Assembly (NCBI RefSeq): GCF_008642295.1
Contig: NZ_CP029190.1
Location: 992,001 to 1,056,000, forward strand
Length of the DNA: 64,000 bases
Source of the DNA: Streptomyces venezuelae
GTDB lineage: Bacteria > Actinomycetota > Actinomycetes > Streptomycetales > Streptomycetaceae
Reading direction: 5' to 3'
Part shown: one piece after another, positions 5,732-53,214 of the stretch
How positions within the stretch are numbered: position 1 is the first letter of the stretch
Layout of the letters: each line of letters starts with the position of its first letter
Position numbers and translations under genes: made by a program
Notes under the pieces: generated by a model
Databases searched by the model: none
The model's input: only the letters and a program-made list of their open reading frames with translations
What the model was told of the DNA's origin: nothing

Positions 5732-5766
5732 AGTAAGCCCGAAACACCCCCGCCGTGAGGAGTTCC

Positions 5767-8064
5767 GTGCAGATCACCACCGCCACCACCGCCACCGCCG
5801 CAGCACCCACCGCCGCCGACGGCCATCAGGTCATCCAGGTCCGCGGCGCCCGCGAGAACAACCTCGTGGACGTATCCGTCGACATCCCCAAACGCCGGCT
5901 GACGGTCTTCACCGGCGTCTCCGGATCCGGCAAGTCCTCGCTGGTCTTCGGCACCATCGCCGCCGAATCCCAGCGGATGATCAACGAGACCTACACGGCG
6001 TTCATCCAGTCGTTCATGCCCAGCCAGAGCCGGCCCGACGTGGACGCCCTGCACAATCTGAGTGCCGCGATCGTCGTGGACCAGGAGCGGATGGGCGCCA
6101 ACTCCCGTTCCACCGTGGGCACGGCCACCGACGCCTCCACCATGCTGCGGATCGTCTTCAGCCGCCTCGGCACCCCGCACATCGGCACGTCCACGGCCTT
6201 CAGCTTCAACACCCCGGACGGCATGTGCCCGCGCTGCGAGGGCATCGGCCAGGTCTCCGACATCGATGTGGACCAGCTGGTGGACCGCGAACTCTCGCTG
6301 AACGAGGGCGCGATCACCGTGCCCGGGTTCGCCGTCGACTCCTGGTACTGGCAGGTCATGGCCAACTCCGGGTTCTTCTCCCCGGACAAGAAGCTGAAGG
6401 AGTTCACCGAGCAGGAGTGGGCGGACTTCCTGCACCGGCCCGCGGTGAAGGTGAAGGTGGGGTCGGGCAACCAGACCTACGAGGGGCTGATCACCAAGAT
6501 CCAGCGGACGTACCTGTCCAAGGACCGCGAGTCCATGCAGTCCCACATCCGGGCCTTCGTGGACCGGGCGGTGGTCTTCGCCGACTGCCCGGAGTGCGGC
6601 GGCAGCCGGCTCGGCCCGGCCGCGCTCTCCTCCCGCATCGACGGCCTGAACATCGCCGACTGCTCGGCCATGCAGATCAGCGACCTCGCCGAGTTCATCG
6701 GGAAGATCGAGGACCCGGGGGTCGCCCCGCTGCTGGCGAACCTCCGCGGCCTGCTGGACTCCCTGGTGGAGATCGGCCTGGGCTACCTCAGCCTGGACCG
6801 GCCGGCCGGCACCCTCTCCGGCGGCGAGGCCCAGCGGGTCAAGATGGTCCGCCACCTCGGTTCCTCGCTCACCGATGTCACCTATGTCTTCGACGAGCCC
6901 ACCACCGGTCTGCACCCCCATGACATCCGGCGGATGAACGACCTGCTGCTGCGGCTGCGCGACAAGGGCAACACCGTCCTGGTGGTCGAGCACAAGCCGG
7001 AGGTCATAGCGATCGCCGACCACGTGGTGGACCTGGGTCCGGGCGCGGGCACCGCGGGCGGGCACCTCTGCTACAGCGGGGACGTGGCCGGGCTGCGCGC
7101 CTCGGACACCCTGACCGGCCGCCACCTCGGCCACCGGGCCCGGCTGCGCGAGCAGGTGCGGAAGCCGCGCGGTGCCCTCTCCATCAAGGGCGCCGACCTG
7201 CACAACCTCAAGGACGTCCAGGTGGACGTGCCGCTCGGGGTGCTGGCCGTGGTCACCGGGGTGGCGGGCTCGGGCAAGAGCTCGCTGATCCACGGGTACC
7301 TGGCCGGCCGGGACGGGGTGGTGGTGGCCGACCAGTCCCCCATCCGCGGCTCGCGGCGGTCGAACCCGGCGACGTACACCGGACTGCTGAACCCGGTCCG
7401 GACCGCCTTCGCGAAGGCCAACGGGGTCAAGCCGGCCCTGTTCAGCGCCAATTCGGAAGGGGCCTGCCCGAACTGCAACGGCCTCGGCCTGGTGTACACG
7501 GACCTGGCGATGATGGCCGGGGTGGCCTCGGTGTGCGAGGAGTGCGAGGGCAAGCGGTTCACCCCGGAGGTTCTGACGTACCGGCTTCGCGGCAGGAACA
7601 TCAGCGAGGTGCTCGACATGCCGGTGGAGGAGGCGCACGCCTTCTTCCCGACCGGCCAGGCCCGGGCGATCCTGGGCCGGCTGCTCGACGTCGGCCTGCC
7701 CTACCTGCGCCTGGGCCAGCCCCTCAACACCCTCTCGGGAGGCGAGCGGCAGCGCCTCAAGCTGGCGATCAACATGGCCGAGAAGGCCTCCACCTACATT
7801 CTGGACGAGCCGACCACCGGGCTCCACCTGGCCGATGTGGACAAACTGCTGGCCCTGCTGGACCGGCTCGTCGAGAACGGCAACTCGGTGATCGTCATCG
7901 AGCACCACCAGGCCGTGATGGCCCATGCCGACTGGCTGATCGACATCGGCCCGGGCGGCGGCCACGACGGCGGCCGGGTGGTCTTCGAGGGCACCCCGGC
8001 CACCCTGATGGCCGAGGCCGACACCTTGACGGCCCGTCACCTCCGGGAGTACGTCGGCTCCTAG
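5767..8064 (+). CDS. UvrA-like ABC-ATPase, DrrC type (drug-resistance UvrA paralogue)
   Basis: 765 aa from GTG 5767, behind GTGAGGAG. There are two ABC-ATPase halves: Walker A GVSGSGKSS near residue 50 and GVAGSGKSS near residue 498; signatures LSGGEAQR and LSGGERQR; Walker B FDEPTTGLHP and LDEPTTGLHL. UvrA zinc-module cysteines are present (CPRCEG, CPECGG, CPNCNG, CEECEG). Full UvrA is about 950-1000 aa; this length fits the short class typified by S. peucetius DrrC, which protects against daunorubicin without being the housekeeping excinuclease. It probably removes a drug or damaged base from DNA, under control of the divergent TetR. Confidence 0.85.
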   Translation: MQITTATTATAAAPTAADGHQVIQVRGARENNLVDVSVDIPKRRLTVFTGVSGSGKSSLVFGTIAAESQRMINETYTAFIQSFMPSQSRPDVDALHNLSAAIVVDQERMGANSRSTVGTATDASTMLRIVFSRLGTPHIGTSTAFSFNTPDGMCPRCEGIGQVSDIDVDQLVDRELSLNEGAITVPGFAVDSWYWQVMANSGFFSPDKKLKEFTEQEWADFLHRPAVKVKVGSGNQTYEGLITKIQRTYLSKDRESMQSHIRAFVDRAVVFADCPECGGSRLGPAALSSRIDGLNIADCSAMQISDLAEFIGKIEDPGVAPLLANLRGLLDSLVEIGLGYLSLDRPAGTLSGGEAQRVKMVRHLGSSLTDVTYVFDEPTTGLHPHDIRRMNDLLLRLRDKGNTVLVVEHKPEVIAIADHVVDLGPGAGTAGGHLCYSGDVAGLRASDTLTGRHLGHRARLREQVRKPRGALSIKGADLHNLKDVQVDVPLGVLAVVTGVAGSGKSSLIHGYLAGRDGVVVADQSPIRGSRRSNPATYTGLLNPVRTAFAKANGVKPALFSANSEGACPNCNGLGLVYTDLAMMAGVASVCEECEGKRFTPEVLTYRLRGRNISEVLDMPVEEAHAFFPTGQARAILGRLLDVGLPYLRLGQPLNTLSGGERQRLKLAINMAEKASTYILDEPTTGLHLADVDKLLALLDRLVENGNSVIVIEHHQAVMAHADWLIDIGPGGGHDGGRVVFEGTPATLMAEADTLTARHLREYVGS

Positions 8065-48656: not shown

Positions 48657-49032
48657 TGGATTGAAGTAGCGTTAGATCCATGGATGGGCGCATGGATCCG
48701 ATCGACAGCGCCGATCGACAGCGCCGCCCGACTCGCCGCGCGCCACACCCTCACCAACTTGCAATGAAGTGAAAACGCGTGGGCGCACTCAGGCCGAGCG
48801 ACAACCCCATCTCTCTTTAAATCACCCACACATGCCCGTGATCAGGCATCAAGGCGACGACCGATTCATTCCGGTTTTCAATACATGTTGACTGGATCCG
48901 ATCTCCGCATGCATGCTCTCCCCATCTGACCCGGAGTCACAGCACCACCAGAGGGCCCTCGTTCACCACGAGTCCTCTCCTTCCGGGTCGGTCCACACCC
49001 GAACGCCTTCGTTCCTTGGGGGGACACGTTTC
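48657..49032. other. AT-richer intergenic region, no gene seen
   Basis: This gap (from the MBL promoter to the NlpC/P60 start) has lower GC than its surroundings and no plausible frame with a ribosome-binding site. It contains a 13-bp direct repeat, CTCTCTTTAAATCACC, and TTGACT at 48898-48903, which could be the -35 of the downstream gene, though no good -10 follows. I looked for conserved c-di-AMP (ydaO) riboswitch blocks and found none. Confidence 0.5.
48698..48723 (+). repeat. 13-bp tandem direct repeat
   Basis: CCGATCGACAGCG occurs twice with no gap. It lies 42 nt upstream of the MBL -35 element and could be a regulator-binding site or a slippage product. Confidence 0.5.
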
Positions 49033-50307
49033 ATGCTGAGCACGCGCACCCTGAACCGCGGGCTGGCCGGCGCGGCCACCGGCGGACTGATCCTCGGCCT
49101 GCTGGCCGCCGTACCTGCCCAGGCCGCCGAACCCGCCCCGCCGTCCGCCACCGCCGTCGCCACGAAGGACAAGGGCGGCGCCGGTCAGGGCCGATCCGTC
49201 GCCGCGGCCGAGACCTCTGCCGCCGCCCGGTCCATCACCCGCAGTGAGGTCATCGAGCGAGCCGCCTCGTGGGTCGGGATCGGCCTCAAGTACAGCTGGA
49301 CCAACACCTACCAGGGCTACCGGACGGACTGTTCCGGCTTCGTCTCGATGGCCTGGGGTCTCTCCACGCCGGGCCTGGACACCACCAGCTTCGTCCCCGC
49401 CGGCGTCGCCTCATGGATCGGCAAGAGCGACCTGAAGCCGGGCGACGCCCTGCTCAACGACGCCGCCGGGGCCAACGGCCACATCGTCGTCTTCGGCGGC
49501 TGGGCCAACTCCGCGCGCACCTCGTACATGGGCTACGAGTTCACGGGCAGCGGGATGCACTACCGCGAGATCCCGTACCCCTACTACTCCGGCCACGGCA
49601 CGTTCCGCCCCGTCCGCAACAACAGCATCGTCGACGACAACCCCGGCGACCAGCCGATCGCCGGCAACTGGGACGGCGGCGCTGCCTCGAACGTGGGCGT
49701 CTGGCGCAACGGCATGTTCCATCTCCGCAATGACGACGGTTCGACGACGTTCGTCGACTGGGGTGGCGGCACGGACCTGCCGGTCTCGGCGAACTGGGAC
49801 GGCACCGGACCCGACAACGTGGGCATCTTCCGCCCCTCCACGGGCCAGTTCCACCTCCGCATGGACGACGGCAGCCTCGCCCTCATCGACTGGGGCGGCG
49901 GCACGGACCAGCCGGTGGCCGGCAACTGGGACGGCGGCGCAGCCGCCAACGTGGGCATCTGGCGTGACGGCAAGTTCCATCTCCGCAACGACGACGGCAC
50001 CCCCACCTACATCGACTGGGGCCAGGCAGGCGACCGCGCGGTCTCCGGCAACTGGGACGGCACCGGACCCGACAACGTGGGCATCTTCCGCCCCTCCACC
50101 GGTCAGTTCCACCTCCGCATGGACGACGGCAGCCTCGTCGTCCTCGACTGGGGCGGCGGCAACGACATCCCCGTCGCCGGGAACTGGGACGGCGGCAACG
50201 GCGGACCCGCCGCCAACATCGGCATCTGGCGCCCCTCCCAGGCCCGCTTCCACCTCCGCAACGACGACGGCACCCCCACCTACATCGACTGGGGCCAGCC
50301 CAGGTAG
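49033..50307 (+). CDS. Secreted NlpC/P60-like cell-wall peptidase with five-repeat C-terminal module
   Basis: 424 aa, ATG 49033, behind GGGGGGA. Signal peptide (AATGGLILGLLAAVPAQA), a linker, then an NlpC/P60-type domain (residues 67-190): catalytic Cys in RTDCSGFVSMAW, His in NGHIVVFGG. The C-terminal 210 residues are five tandem repeats of about 41 residues with core GNWDG..NVGIW/F..FHLR.DDG....DWG, similar to FG-GAP/VCBS beta-propeller units. Repeats 1 and 3 resemble each other, as do 2 and 4. The module probably binds wall or surface glycan. It is nearly identical to the tail of the next gene. Confidence 0.85.
   Translation: MLSTRTLNRGLAGAATGGLILGLLAAVPAQAAEPAPPSATAVATKDKGGAGQGRSVAAAETSAAARSITRSEVIERAASWVGIGLKYSWTNTYQGYRTDCSGFVSMAWGLSTPGLDTTSFVPAGVASWIGKSDLKPGDALLNDAAGANGHIVVFGGWANSARTSYMGYEFTGSGMHYREIPYPYYSGHGTFRPVRNNSIVDDNPGDQPIAGNWDGGAASNVGVWRNGMFHLRNDDGSTTFVDWGGGTDLPVSANWDGTGPDNVGIFRPSTGQFHLRMDDGSLALIDWGGGTDQPVAGNWDGGAAANVGIWRDGKFHLRNDDGTPTYIDWGQAGDRAVSGNWDGTGPDNVGIFRPSTGQFHLRMDDGSLVVLDWGGGNDIPVAGNWDGGNGGPAANIGIWRPSQARFHLRNDDGTPTYIDWGQPR
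49663..50306 (+). repeat. 644-bp near-identical repeat, copy 1
   Basis: This stretch, coding for the C-terminal repeat module of the NlpC/P60 gene, matches 51052-51695 with one visible mismatch (A at 49809 versus C). The identity begins at GGCAACTGGGACGGCGG and stops at the termination codons, TAG here and TAA in the second copy. Confidence 0.95.
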
Positions 50308-50421
50308 GCACCAGTACCAGCGCTTCCCCGGTGCGCCGCGATCGGCGGCGCACCGGGGCACCGGGCCGCGAACTGCCCTTCCATCACACCCTCGCGCAAC
50401 GAACAGGACCAGGACACCTAC

Positions 50422-51696
50422 GTGAACCGCACCTCCCGCCGGCGCATATCCGCCGTCGCCACCACCACCGCTCTCGCGGCCACGACACTGCTCGCCTCGG
50501 CCGTCACCGCCCAGGCGAAGGGCGTCGACCTCTCCAACCCGGCGGCCGTCGCCGCCGCCCCGGACCACTCCTGCGGAGGGGTCACCGACTCCGACCGCGC
50601 CGTGGCCGACCGGCTCAACTACCAGCTCACCGGGACCCTTCGGGGATACCTCACCGCGTACCGGGTCTCCTGCGCCCGCGCGATCACCGAGGCCGTCCGC
50701 GCCCGCGGCCTGTCGGAGCGGGCCGGCGTCATCGCGGTAACGACCGCGATCGTGGAGACCACCCTGCGCAACAACCCCAACGAAGAGGACCACGACAGCG
50801 TCGGCCTCTTCCAACAGCGCGCCTTCTGGGGCTCCTTCGAGCAGCGCATGGACCCGACCTGGTCGACCAACGCCTTCCTCGCGGAGATGCTGAAGATCTC
50901 CAACTGGCAGACCCGGCCCATCGGTGAGGTCTGCCAGGCGGTGCAGCGGTCCGCCTACCCCAGCAAGTACCAGCCGCAGTCCCCCGACGCCCAGCGCATC
51001 GTCGACGCCCTCTGGAACGGTTCCACCACCGGCGGCGATCTCCCGGTGTCGGGCAACTGGGACGGCGGCGCTGCCTCGAACGTGGGCGTCTGGCGCAACG
51101 GCATGTTCCATCTCCGCAATGACGACGGTTCGACGACGTTCGTCGACTGGGGTGGCGGCACGGACCTGCCGGTCTCGGCGAACTGGGACGGCACCGGCCC
51201 CGACAACGTGGGCATCTTCCGCCCCTCCACGGGCCAGTTCCACCTCCGCATGGACGACGGCAGCCTCGCCCTCATCGACTGGGGCGGCGGCACGGACCAG
51301 CCGGTGGCCGGCAACTGGGACGGCGGCGCAGCCGCCAACGTGGGCATCTGGCGTGACGGCAAGTTCCATCTCCGCAACGACGACGGCACCCCCACCTACA
51401 TCGACTGGGGCCAGGCAGGCGACCGCGCGGTCTCCGGCAACTGGGACGGCACCGGACCCGACAACGTGGGCATCTTCCGCCCCTCCACCGGTCAGTTCCA
51501 CCTCCGCATGGACGACGGCAGCCTCGTCGTCCTCGACTGGGGCGGCGGCAACGACATCCCCGTCGCCGGGAACTGGGACGGCGGCAACGGCGGACCCGCC
51601 GCCAACATCGGCATCTGGCGCCCCTCCCAGGCCCGCTTCCACCTCCGCAACGACGACGGCACCCCCACCTACATCGACTGGGGCCAGCCCAGGTAA
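50422..51696 (+). CDS. Secreted transglycosylase/lysozyme-like protein with the same five-repeat module
   Basis: 424 aa, GTG 50422. Signal peptide (ALAATTLLASAVTAQA) then a lysozyme-like helical domain (about residues 50-205): ARGLSERAGVIAVTTAIVET with a Glu at the expected catalytic place, DHDSVGLFQQRAFWGSFEQR, MDPTWSTNAFLAEML, and VCQAVQRSAYPSKYQPQSPD. This is the pattern of Streptomyces proteins predicted to be SLT-type muramidases. The C-terminal module is identical at protein level to that of the preceding gene. It probably cuts the glycan strand. Confidence 0.8.
   Translation: MNRTSRRRISAVATTTALAATTLLASAVTAQAKGVDLSNPAAVAAAPDHSCGGVTDSDRAVADRLNYQLTGTLRGYLTAYRVSCARAITEAVRARGLSERAGVIAVTTAIVETTLRNNPNEEDHDSVGLFQQRAFWGSFEQRMDPTWSTNAFLAEMLKISNWQTRPIGEVCQAVQRSAYPSKYQPQSPDAQRIVDALWNGSTTGGDLPVSGNWDGGAASNVGVWRNGMFHLRNDDGSTTFVDWGGGTDLPVSANWDGTGPDNVGIFRPSTGQFHLRMDDGSLALIDWGGGTDQPVAGNWDGGAAANVGIWRDGKFHLRNDDGTPTYIDWGQAGDRAVSGNWDGTGPDNVGIFRPSTGQFHLRMDDGSLVVLDWGGGNDIPVAGNWDGGNGGPAANIGIWRPSQARFHLRNDDGTPTYIDWGQPR
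51052..51695 (+). repeat. 644-bp near-identical repeat, copy 2
   Basis: Second copy of the block at 49663-50306, offset by 1389 bp in direct orientation, with one mismatch. Flanking sequences (catalytic domains and intergenic DNA) are unrelated, so the block has been copied or homogenised as a unit. Confidence 0.95.
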
Positions 51697-51723
51697 CCGA
51701 CCCACGAGACGCGGGGGAACGTA

Positions 51724-53214
51724 ATGTCCAGCACCCTGACCCGGCGCGCCCTCACGAGGGCGTCGGCCCTGGCACTCGCGGCGTCCGCGGTGACCACCAT
51801 CCTCGCGGCCCCGTCCCATGCCGCGACGCCGTCCTACCAACTGCCGTTCACCTGCGGCCAGGTGTGGTACGGCGGCACGTACACCGACCACAGCCCATCC
51901 GAACTGGCCATCGACTTCACCCGTGACGCCGGCACCGTCAACCAGCCGGTGCTCGCGAGCGCCGACGGCGTCGTCTCCGTCGCGACGACCCTCACCAACC
52001 CCGACGGCTCCTACCGCAGCTACGGAAAGTACGTCGTCATCGACCACGGAGGAGGCCGCAGAACCCTGTACGCCCACCTCAACGACTACCAGGTGGCCGC
52101 CGGCCAGCCCGTGGTGCGCGGCCAGCGCATCGGAATCGTCGGCAGCACCGGCCGATCCACCGGACCGCACCTGCACTACGAGCAGTGGAACGGCGGCGCG
52201 GTCGAACGAGCCGTCTTCGACGGCACCCCCTTCCGCATGGGATCGACCCTCGCCAGCGCCAACTGCGGAAACGTTCCCCCGCAGCCGGTCAAACACTGGC
52301 GCACCCACGTGACGGTGGAGGCATCGGGCCAGGCCTTCCACTCGGTACGGGCCGAGGACGGGACCTGGACCCCGTTCGGGAACATCGGCACCGAAGGCGG
52401 AGCGGGCGCGGTCCCGGGCGGCGTGCGGAGCACCGCCGAGGCCGGCGTGGACGGAGACACGCACGTACTCGCGGTGAGCGGCGCGGGCGGTCTTTTCCAC
52501 ACCGTCCGCTCCACATCGGGCGAATGGACGGGCTTCGGCGACGTCCGGGACGCCACCGGGGCCTCCCTGCCGGCGGCCGTGACCCAGGTCGCGGCGGCAT
52601 CCATCGGCGCGGAGCTGCACGTCGCGGTCGTCGCCGACGGCACCATCCACCACACCGTGCGCAAGGCGGACGGCACCTGGCTCCCGTTCGGCGAGGTCGG
52701 CCGACCGAGTGGCAAGGCGGTGTCCAAGGTCGCCGTCGCACGGGTCGGCGGTGAACTGCAGATCATGGCACTGAGCGATGGCACGCTCCAGCACGCGATC
52801 CGCAAGGCCGACGGCCACTGGACGGAATTCGGTGACGCCGGCGCCGAGATGGGAGCGAGCGGAGCCGGCATCACCCGGATCGACGACCTCGCTGTCGCCG
52901 GCACCGGCCCGGGCGACCTGCAGGTGGTGCTCTCCGCCGACGGCGGCACCCGACAGTTCCACGGTGCCCGCTACGCCGACGGCTCCTGGGCCCCCGTCGG
53001 CGATCTCGGCTTCGTGCTGGGGAACGTGAGCGTGACCGACGTATCGGTCGCCGCCGTGGCCGACGAACTGCACGCCGCCCTGGTCACCACCGACGGCCGG
53101 GTCCTGCACACGATCCGTCGCCAGAACGCCTCCTGGACCGCCGCCGGCTCGGTGGACCTGGCAGGAATCGCGGGTGCTCCCACCGGTGTCGCGGTCACCG
53201 GCACCTACAACTGA
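51724..53214 (+). CDS. Secreted M23 (LytM) peptidase with lectin-like WxxFG repeats
   Basis: 496 aa, ATG 51724, 27 nt after the previous stop. Twin-arginine-like start then signal (ALALAASAVTTILAAPSHA). The M23 domain spans about residues 40-175: DHSPSELAIDF for the His/Asp metal ligands, YAHLNDYQVAAGQPV, and GPHLHYEQW for the second metal His. The remaining 310 residues contain about six repeats ending in WxxFG (HSVRAEDGTWTPFG; HTVRSTSGEWTGFG; HTVRKADGTWLPFG; HAIRKADGHWTEFG), like PLL/tectonin-type lectins. It is a wall endopeptidase and third in the exported set. Confidence 0.88.
   Translation: MSSTLTRRALTRASALALAASAVTTILAAPSHAATPSYQLPFTCGQVWYGGTYTDHSPSELAIDFTRDAGTVNQPVLASADGVVSVATTLTNPDGSYRSYGKYVVIDHGGGRRTLYAHLNDYQVAAGQPVVRGQRIGIVGSTGRSTGPHLHYEQWNGGAVERAVFDGTPFRMGSTLASANCGNVPPQPVKHWRTHVTVEASGQAFHSVRAEDGTWTPFGNIGTEGGAGAVPGGVRSTAEAGVDGDTHVLAVSGAGGLFHTVRSTSGEWTGFGDVRDATGASLPAAVTQVAAASIGAELHVAVVADGTIHHTVRKADGTWLPFGEVGRPSGKAVSKVAVARVGGELQIMALSDGTLQHAIRKADGHWTEFGDAGAEMGASGAGITRIDDLAVAGTGPGDLQVVLSADGGTRQFHGARYADGSWAPVGDLGFVLGNVSVTDVSVAAVADELHAALVTTDGRVLHTIRRQNASWTAAGSVDLAGIAGAPTGVAVTGTYN

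Follow-up and report, generated by a model that had tools for sequence, protein, structure and literature searches.

Concerted evolution of a C-terminal module shared by neighbouring genes for unrelated wall enzymes in Streptomyces

When propellers are considered at the level of the single protein, VCBS, FG-GAP and tachylectin-like β-propellers are common in Actinobacteria, with blades of four strands and high identity between blades, and VCBS-like propellers have been linked to carbohydrate recognition (PMC9218822). In that work the blades are amplified inside one protein and the term “gene conversion” does not occur in the main text, whereas the case described here concerns sequence shared between neighbouring genes that encode different enzymes. 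Long-lasting concerted evolution is rare in prokaryotes, with 26 genes listed (PMC6053082). One of these, mtrA, is a tandem pair showing fusion and domain shuffling, for which independent duplication was argued against (PMC6053082). As in those paralogues, the same-genome copies described below are closer to each other than to their orthologues, mostly at synonymous sites too, a pattern ascribed there to recurrent gene conversion; unlike in those paralogues, the C-terminal domain alone is homogenised here, while the rest of the two genes is non-homologous (PMC6053082). Conversion has likewise left the extracellular-domain region of SIGLEC11 and SIGLEC16 extremely similar in primates, although these are receptors of one family, whereas our genes encode bacterial enzymes of different families (PMC5701461). 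A further likeness is found in the GH184 muramidases with their module walking, which share the catalytic domain type of one of our genes and carry a wall-binding module common to different catalytic families; that module, however, is SH3-like and belongs to fungal enzymes, with homologues across proteins, whereas here the near-identical copies are neighbours (PMC10394673). Among the literature matches listed, all of open licence, none reports the same pattern in its title or the start of its abstract. The present case is a clean and recurrent instance of domain-limited concerted evolution between unrelated enzymes, put together from known ingredients.

The window, that is, the whole stretch of 64,000 nucleotides analysed (G000:C1:992001-1056000), comes from Streptomyces venezuelae, and the closest named homologues of its genes are from Streptomyces. 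Three consecutive genes for secreted wall enzymes, here called A, B and C, lie on its plus strand (Table 1); the start of A was picked from homologues, the listed open reading frame beginning further upstream, at 48913. Genes A and B end in a direct repeat of 644 nt, for which the initial annotation had given the coordinates and a single mismatch, both of which proved exact on recount by direct comparison. The sole difference between the copies (A at 49809, C at 51198) changes GGA to GGC, both of which encode Gly, and is thus synonymous. Identity begins at the GNWDG codons, and the six residues preceding it, GDQPIA in A and GDLPVS in B, are alike as protein and different as DNA. At the other edge it ends inside the stop codons, TAG (50305-50307) in A and TAA (51694-51696) in B, and no sustained similarity beyond them was found in the window DNA comparison; the reported end of identity at the stop codons was thereby borne out, and so was the count of five repeats encoded by each module. 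Within the 7.5-Mb single-contig genome, a whole-genome DNA search locates copies of the block at these two places only, and a profile-based one, at E<=1e-15, returns the same two and no others. GC3 is 0.94 in A and in B, for the catalytic part and the module alike, and lends no support to a foreign origin of the block. On the minus strand, an antisense open frame of 1232 aa (49411-53109) spans A, B and C and is most likely a by-product of high GC.

Table 1. Features of the three-gene locus, in positions of the window.
Feature	Position	Strand	Basis or remark
Gene A (424 aa), encoding a secreted cysteine peptidase of NlpC/P60-like (C40) type that ends in the module	49033..50307	+	ORF, homologue-based start
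Signal peptide (by eye) and catalytic part of gene A	49033..49662	+	No clear resemblance to gene B
Shared block, copy 1 (five FG-GAP/VCBS-like repeats)	49663..50306	+	644 nt, differing from copy 2 at one synonymous site
Gap between A and B, 114 bp, outside the repeat	50308..50421	+	Sequence comparison
Gene B (424 aa, GTG start), encoding a secreted GH184-like muramidase that ends in the same module	50422..51696	+	
Signal peptide (by eye) and GH184-like catalytic part of gene B	50422..51051	+	Glu112 invariant in 21/21 homologues
Shared block, copy 2	51052..51695	+	644 nt, differing from copy 1 at one synonymous site
Gene C, encoding a secreted M23 peptidase whose C-terminal part is different and lectin-like	51724..53214	+	Pfam M23

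The catalytic parts of A and B had been described as unrelated, one NlpC/P60 and the other transglycosylase-like. They are indeed unrelated, the best local N-terminal alignment reaching 35% over 54 aa (score 45), but the individual labels need adjustment. Gene A gives only a weak match to the Pfam model NLPC_P60 (PF00877; E=0.0025, 18.2 bits, under the cut-off of 23) and is for that reason named “NlpC/P60-like”; matches to MepS/Spr in the PDB have E-values of 0.01 and 0.015. Its residues Cys100, His150 and Glu169 are invariant in 8/8 aligned homologues, and we take them to be the active-site Cys, His and third polar residue. The active-site pattern of RipA is Cys-His-Glu. The catalytic domain of gene B is closest, by sequence and by fold, to GH184 muramidases (PDB 8b2h/8b2e) and not to a named transglycosylase family. 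The catalytic Glu of this family is Glu41 in the Kionochaeta enzyme (PMC10394673), and in the pairwise alignment it pairs with Glu99 of gene B, a position occupied by E, Q, H or D in the 21 homologues; the invariant Glu112 is, by eye, the better fit to the motif. B-type catalytic domains with more than 60% identity are rare, being present in 2/198 other Streptomyces genomes searched.

The five FG-GAP/VCBS-like repeats of the module are predicted, with moderate confidence, to form a β-propeller. In the structural model (mean pLDDT 72) four-stranded repeats are set out as a propeller, and a number of the listed module homologues carry PF01839/PF13517 labels. The FG-GAP and VCBS models gave no match to the window proteins, FG-GAP_3 matches two related module genes under its cut-off, and a PDB profile search with the module returned nothing credible, no solved structure being matched by sequence. 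Tachylectin-2, which was considered, is not named among the matches listed and could still be a relative. In the alignment the modules occur in two phases, one starting at GNWDG and ending at WGQPR, the other starting at GPDN and ending near GNWDAR, and the point at which the propeller ring closes may differ between species. Blades within one A protein are on average 81% identical (ten genomes; S. chryseus was left out and the A protein of NPDC056184 gave four blades), against 69% for same-position blades between genomes. This within-protein identity is uneven, ranging from 66 to 93%, and the window's own blades, at 66%, are not homogenised. High blade identity is known for other VCBS propellers (PMC9218822).

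Neighbouring copies of the module evolve in concert. At the protein level, the modules of A and B are 89.7-100% identical in 11 of the 12 genomes compared, each pair lying above the best between-genome value of its genome. Both proteins sit on same-sized contigs in these 11 genomes, eight of which are known from proteins alone; among the eight, adjacency is indicated by neighbouring locus tags in YST-16 and NPDC006487 and by equal contig size in the others. In the twelfth, S. virginiae ACFQ77, which entered the protein comparison and was left out of the module tree, A and B lie on different contigs (68,010 and 12,042 bases) and may be unlinked; their modules are 73.9% identical. The highest between-genome protein value, 95.8%, is that of S. 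virginiae P0023 with the partial module of S. chryseus P0020. Rather than having diverged independently in the pairs of other species, which according to the initial annotation would have disproved recent homogenisation, the copies of each genome group together in a tree of 23 modules (11/11 genomes, supports 85/80 to 100/100, one set identical). The genome labels require 10 changes on this tree, which is the minimum, and an A-only module clade is rejected (p-AU 1.15e-06). The A protein is of the same catalytic type in 9/11 of these genomes, where the module follows the same NNS[IV]VDD end, while the “A” partner in S. subrutilus and S. chryseus is another type of C40 protein that shares the module of B. 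The catalytic-domain tree was also set against the module tree for signs of coordinated cassette replacement; its resolution is poor, and the conflict between the two is not significant (p-AU 0.0747).

The same picture emerges at the DNA level, where 15 of 18 same-locus pairs (13 loci, 12 genomes) are 86.7-99.7% identical and exceed every one of the 788 between-genome pairs, whose maximum is 85.4%. The three remaining pairs stand at 62-63% and all involve one gene of G486. Immediate neighbours are homogenised in 14/15 cases, whereas unlinked pairs within the same genome (n=14, in four genomes) reach 45-80%. Module ends are profile-defined in this comparison, so that the window pair scores 97.7% here against 99.8% for the exact block. 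The comparison includes the G362 pair and a gene B module in L146 whose start was set by motif, and leaves out the truncated A of L036, the B at a contig end of L152, the second copies L222 and L223 and pairs with fewer than 150 aligned codons. Synonymous divergence, which the initial annotation had proposed to compare between catalytic domains and modules across species, agrees: in five genomes the dS between the modules of A and B is 0.007 (window), 0.284, 0, 0.492 and 0, whereas between those genomes it is 0.40-1.40 for modules, 0.38-0.78 for the A catalytic part and 0.42-0.99 for that of B. The nearest fetched relative with A, G227, differs from the window by a dS of 0.28 in the A catalytic part, which brings the range between species for this part to 0.28-0.78, and of 0.60 in the module. 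With dS high between species and near zero between the neighbours in the window, synonymous positions are free to change, yet hardly differ between neighbours. It is this near-identity of neighbours, synonymous sites included, with orthologous modules and unlinked modules of the same genome far apart, that amounts to concerted evolution.

Within the genus, A-type domains are found at E<=1e-40 in 17/392 genomes, a count that takes in the genome of the window; in a sister genus, which includes Kitasatospora records, 7/70 genomes have them at E<=1e-60. Modules (E<=1e-30) occur in 12/392 and 19/70, respectively, the own genome again counted in the former. Wherever DNA is available for both genes (7/7 loci, from a listing that left out module matches shorter than 60 aa), A lies upstream of B on one strand, so that this order predates the identity. 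In G227 and G345, a single module-bearing A gene stands without a B beside it. Since loci were picked by module matches and diverged neighbours could thus be under-sampled, the flanks of 23 apparent single-module loci were scanned up to about 7 kb at a looser threshold, with at least one further locus (G351) outside the scan. No further module was found in these flanks in 21/23 loci; G362 revealed an adjacent module gene that is 98.7% identical, and G428, on the opposite strand, a partial module relative (76.7% over 283 nt).

In the register anchored at the stop codon, at least one pair stays matched as far as that codon in 11/12 loci, and sustained matching does not extend past it; in G074 the copies end differently, their block breaking off some 11-14 nt short of the stop codon's end. 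Upstream, the block reaches about 650-700 nt from the stop, near the module start, in most loci, while the G496 pair drops out of the register at about 530 nt. Edges at the module start and the stop codon are what homology-limited conversion predicts, whereas a fresh duplication has no reason to stop there each time. A mosaic test of eight pairs, based on the longest identical run, detects clustered differences in G074 (p=0.003) and G496 (p=0.0008), with G120 borderline and five pairs without clustering; as clustering is clear in only 2/8 pairs, positive tract evidence is limited. Gene conversion is the most likely cause of the homogenisation, and we consider it probable that the modules undergo domain-limited concerted evolution through repeated gene conversion, within one chromosome, of direct repeats that lie close together.

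The main competitor of this reading is an independent recent duplication, in which the module is copied anew onto the neighbouring gene in each lineage and no existing module is converted. Repeated re-duplication could yield the same tree, and the variable identity of the partner fits it, given that other C40 types share the module of B in S. chryseus and S. subrutilus and that the module is found on a likely gene C orthologue where the window has another domain, which implies gain or exchange of modules at loci of this kind. For sets other than A/B this explanation may hold. Applied to A and B, it has to assume that each new duplication replaces the old module and stops at the domain edge every time, and it has to accommodate the catalytic type of A, the same in 9/11 genomes, with its NNS[IV]VDD end, the constant A-B order and the clustering of divergence in the G074 and G496 pairs; we judge it unlikely. 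The initial annotation had left the choice between a cassette moved by gene conversion and one duplicated recently. Homogenisation does recur across species, but a one-off recent duplication is not supported for A and B, because distant relatives share the A-B order and have each homogenised modules of their own.

An assembly or polishing artefact, by which one copy was duplicated or corrected to match the other, deserves mention as near-identical repeats are prone to such errors, and a contig of S. hainanensis does end inside the module of B, as contigs do at repeats. The window nevertheless belongs to a genome in a single contig, its copies differ in their flanks, in their stop codons and at one base, and the same pattern recurs, at 86.7-99.7%, in 12 other loci of 11 other genomes, which makes an artefact very improbable. 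Even less credit can be given to plain purifying selection on a shared target with no exchange of DNA: although A and B both look like secreted wall hydrolases and the module has a low dN/dS between G000 and G227 (0.068/0.60), the copies agree at synonymous sites (dS at most 0.03 in 7/18 same-locus pairs) that diverge freely between species, and the comparison of these sites rules out purifying selection as the sole cause.

Under recurrent gene conversion, the process could be pictured as follows. The predicted five-bladed propeller domain is probably what keeps the enzyme attached to the cell wall, and close direct repeats in neighbouring genes would be converted repeatedly within one chromosome, each tract halting where homology halts, at the module start and at the stop codon. 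Homogenisation may then be useful, although this step is less certain, by keeping enzymes of different bond specificity directed at a single wall target as it changes. Selection for a common target of both enzymes, suggested by the initial annotation, is plausible, although proximity alone could drive conversion. In NRRL WC-3742 (L036:4881-5744), gene A holds a module stub only, apparently through an internal deletion, next to a B with a longer module, so deletion probably occurs too.

A search for the module on other catalytic domains, suggested at the outset, found it with M23 peptidases, PF06737 transglycosylases and Rv2525c-like hydrolases. Same-locus sets combine M23 with Rv2525c-like hydrolases in G453 and G577, and PF06737 transglycosylase domains with partners lacking a Pfam family at E<=0.01 in G536, G181, G492 and G078. 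In G486 (Kitasatospora sp. SUK 42; L216, also L037), four adjacent module genes encode an A-like protein (57% to A), an Rv2525c-like hydrolase, a PF06737 protein and a protein of 1003 aa. Across the full module, three of these copies agree at 92-97%, while the fourth, that of the 1003-aa protein without a Pfam match, stays at 62-63% and escapes homogenisation despite being an immediate neighbour. Gene C of the window adds another variant. Its C-terminal half matches NF052348 (beta propeller lectin) with E=4.9e-10 and 39 bits, below the cut-off of 200. Its likely orthologue P0026 in Streptomyces sp. NPDC012888 is 71% identical over 183 aa, with no meaningful match beyond, and ends in the A/B module where the window has the lectin-like part, so the module is also swapped at such loci.

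A broader reading, which we put forward tentatively and lean somewhat against, is that of a targeting cassette in Streptomycetaceae: clustered hydrolases cutting different bonds would be kept by gene conversion on one fast-changing lectin-like propeller, a change of target would spread across the cluster as coordinated retargeting, and homogenisation would be nested, blade-to-blade and gene-to-gene, in some genomes. Domain-confined concerted evolution between otherwise unrelated neighbours would show how bacteria can keep a set of wall hydrolases on one changing target. Species with different module versions provide a ready comparative set, and neighbouring versus unlinked copies within one genome a built-in control. 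On the practical side, domain trees of such proteins do not track the enzymes, and assemblies can break at these loci.

Two genomes carry a module-gene pair twice, in opposite orientation. In G536 the two pairs (L211, L223) lie about 39 kb from each chromosome end, and in G453 (L210, L222) they lie about 418 kb from one chromosome end and 54 kb from the opposite one. Elsewhere in the window, at 5755-8064, a UvrA-like protein of 769 aa falls short of the 924 and 943 positions of the UvrA models and scores below their cut-offs.
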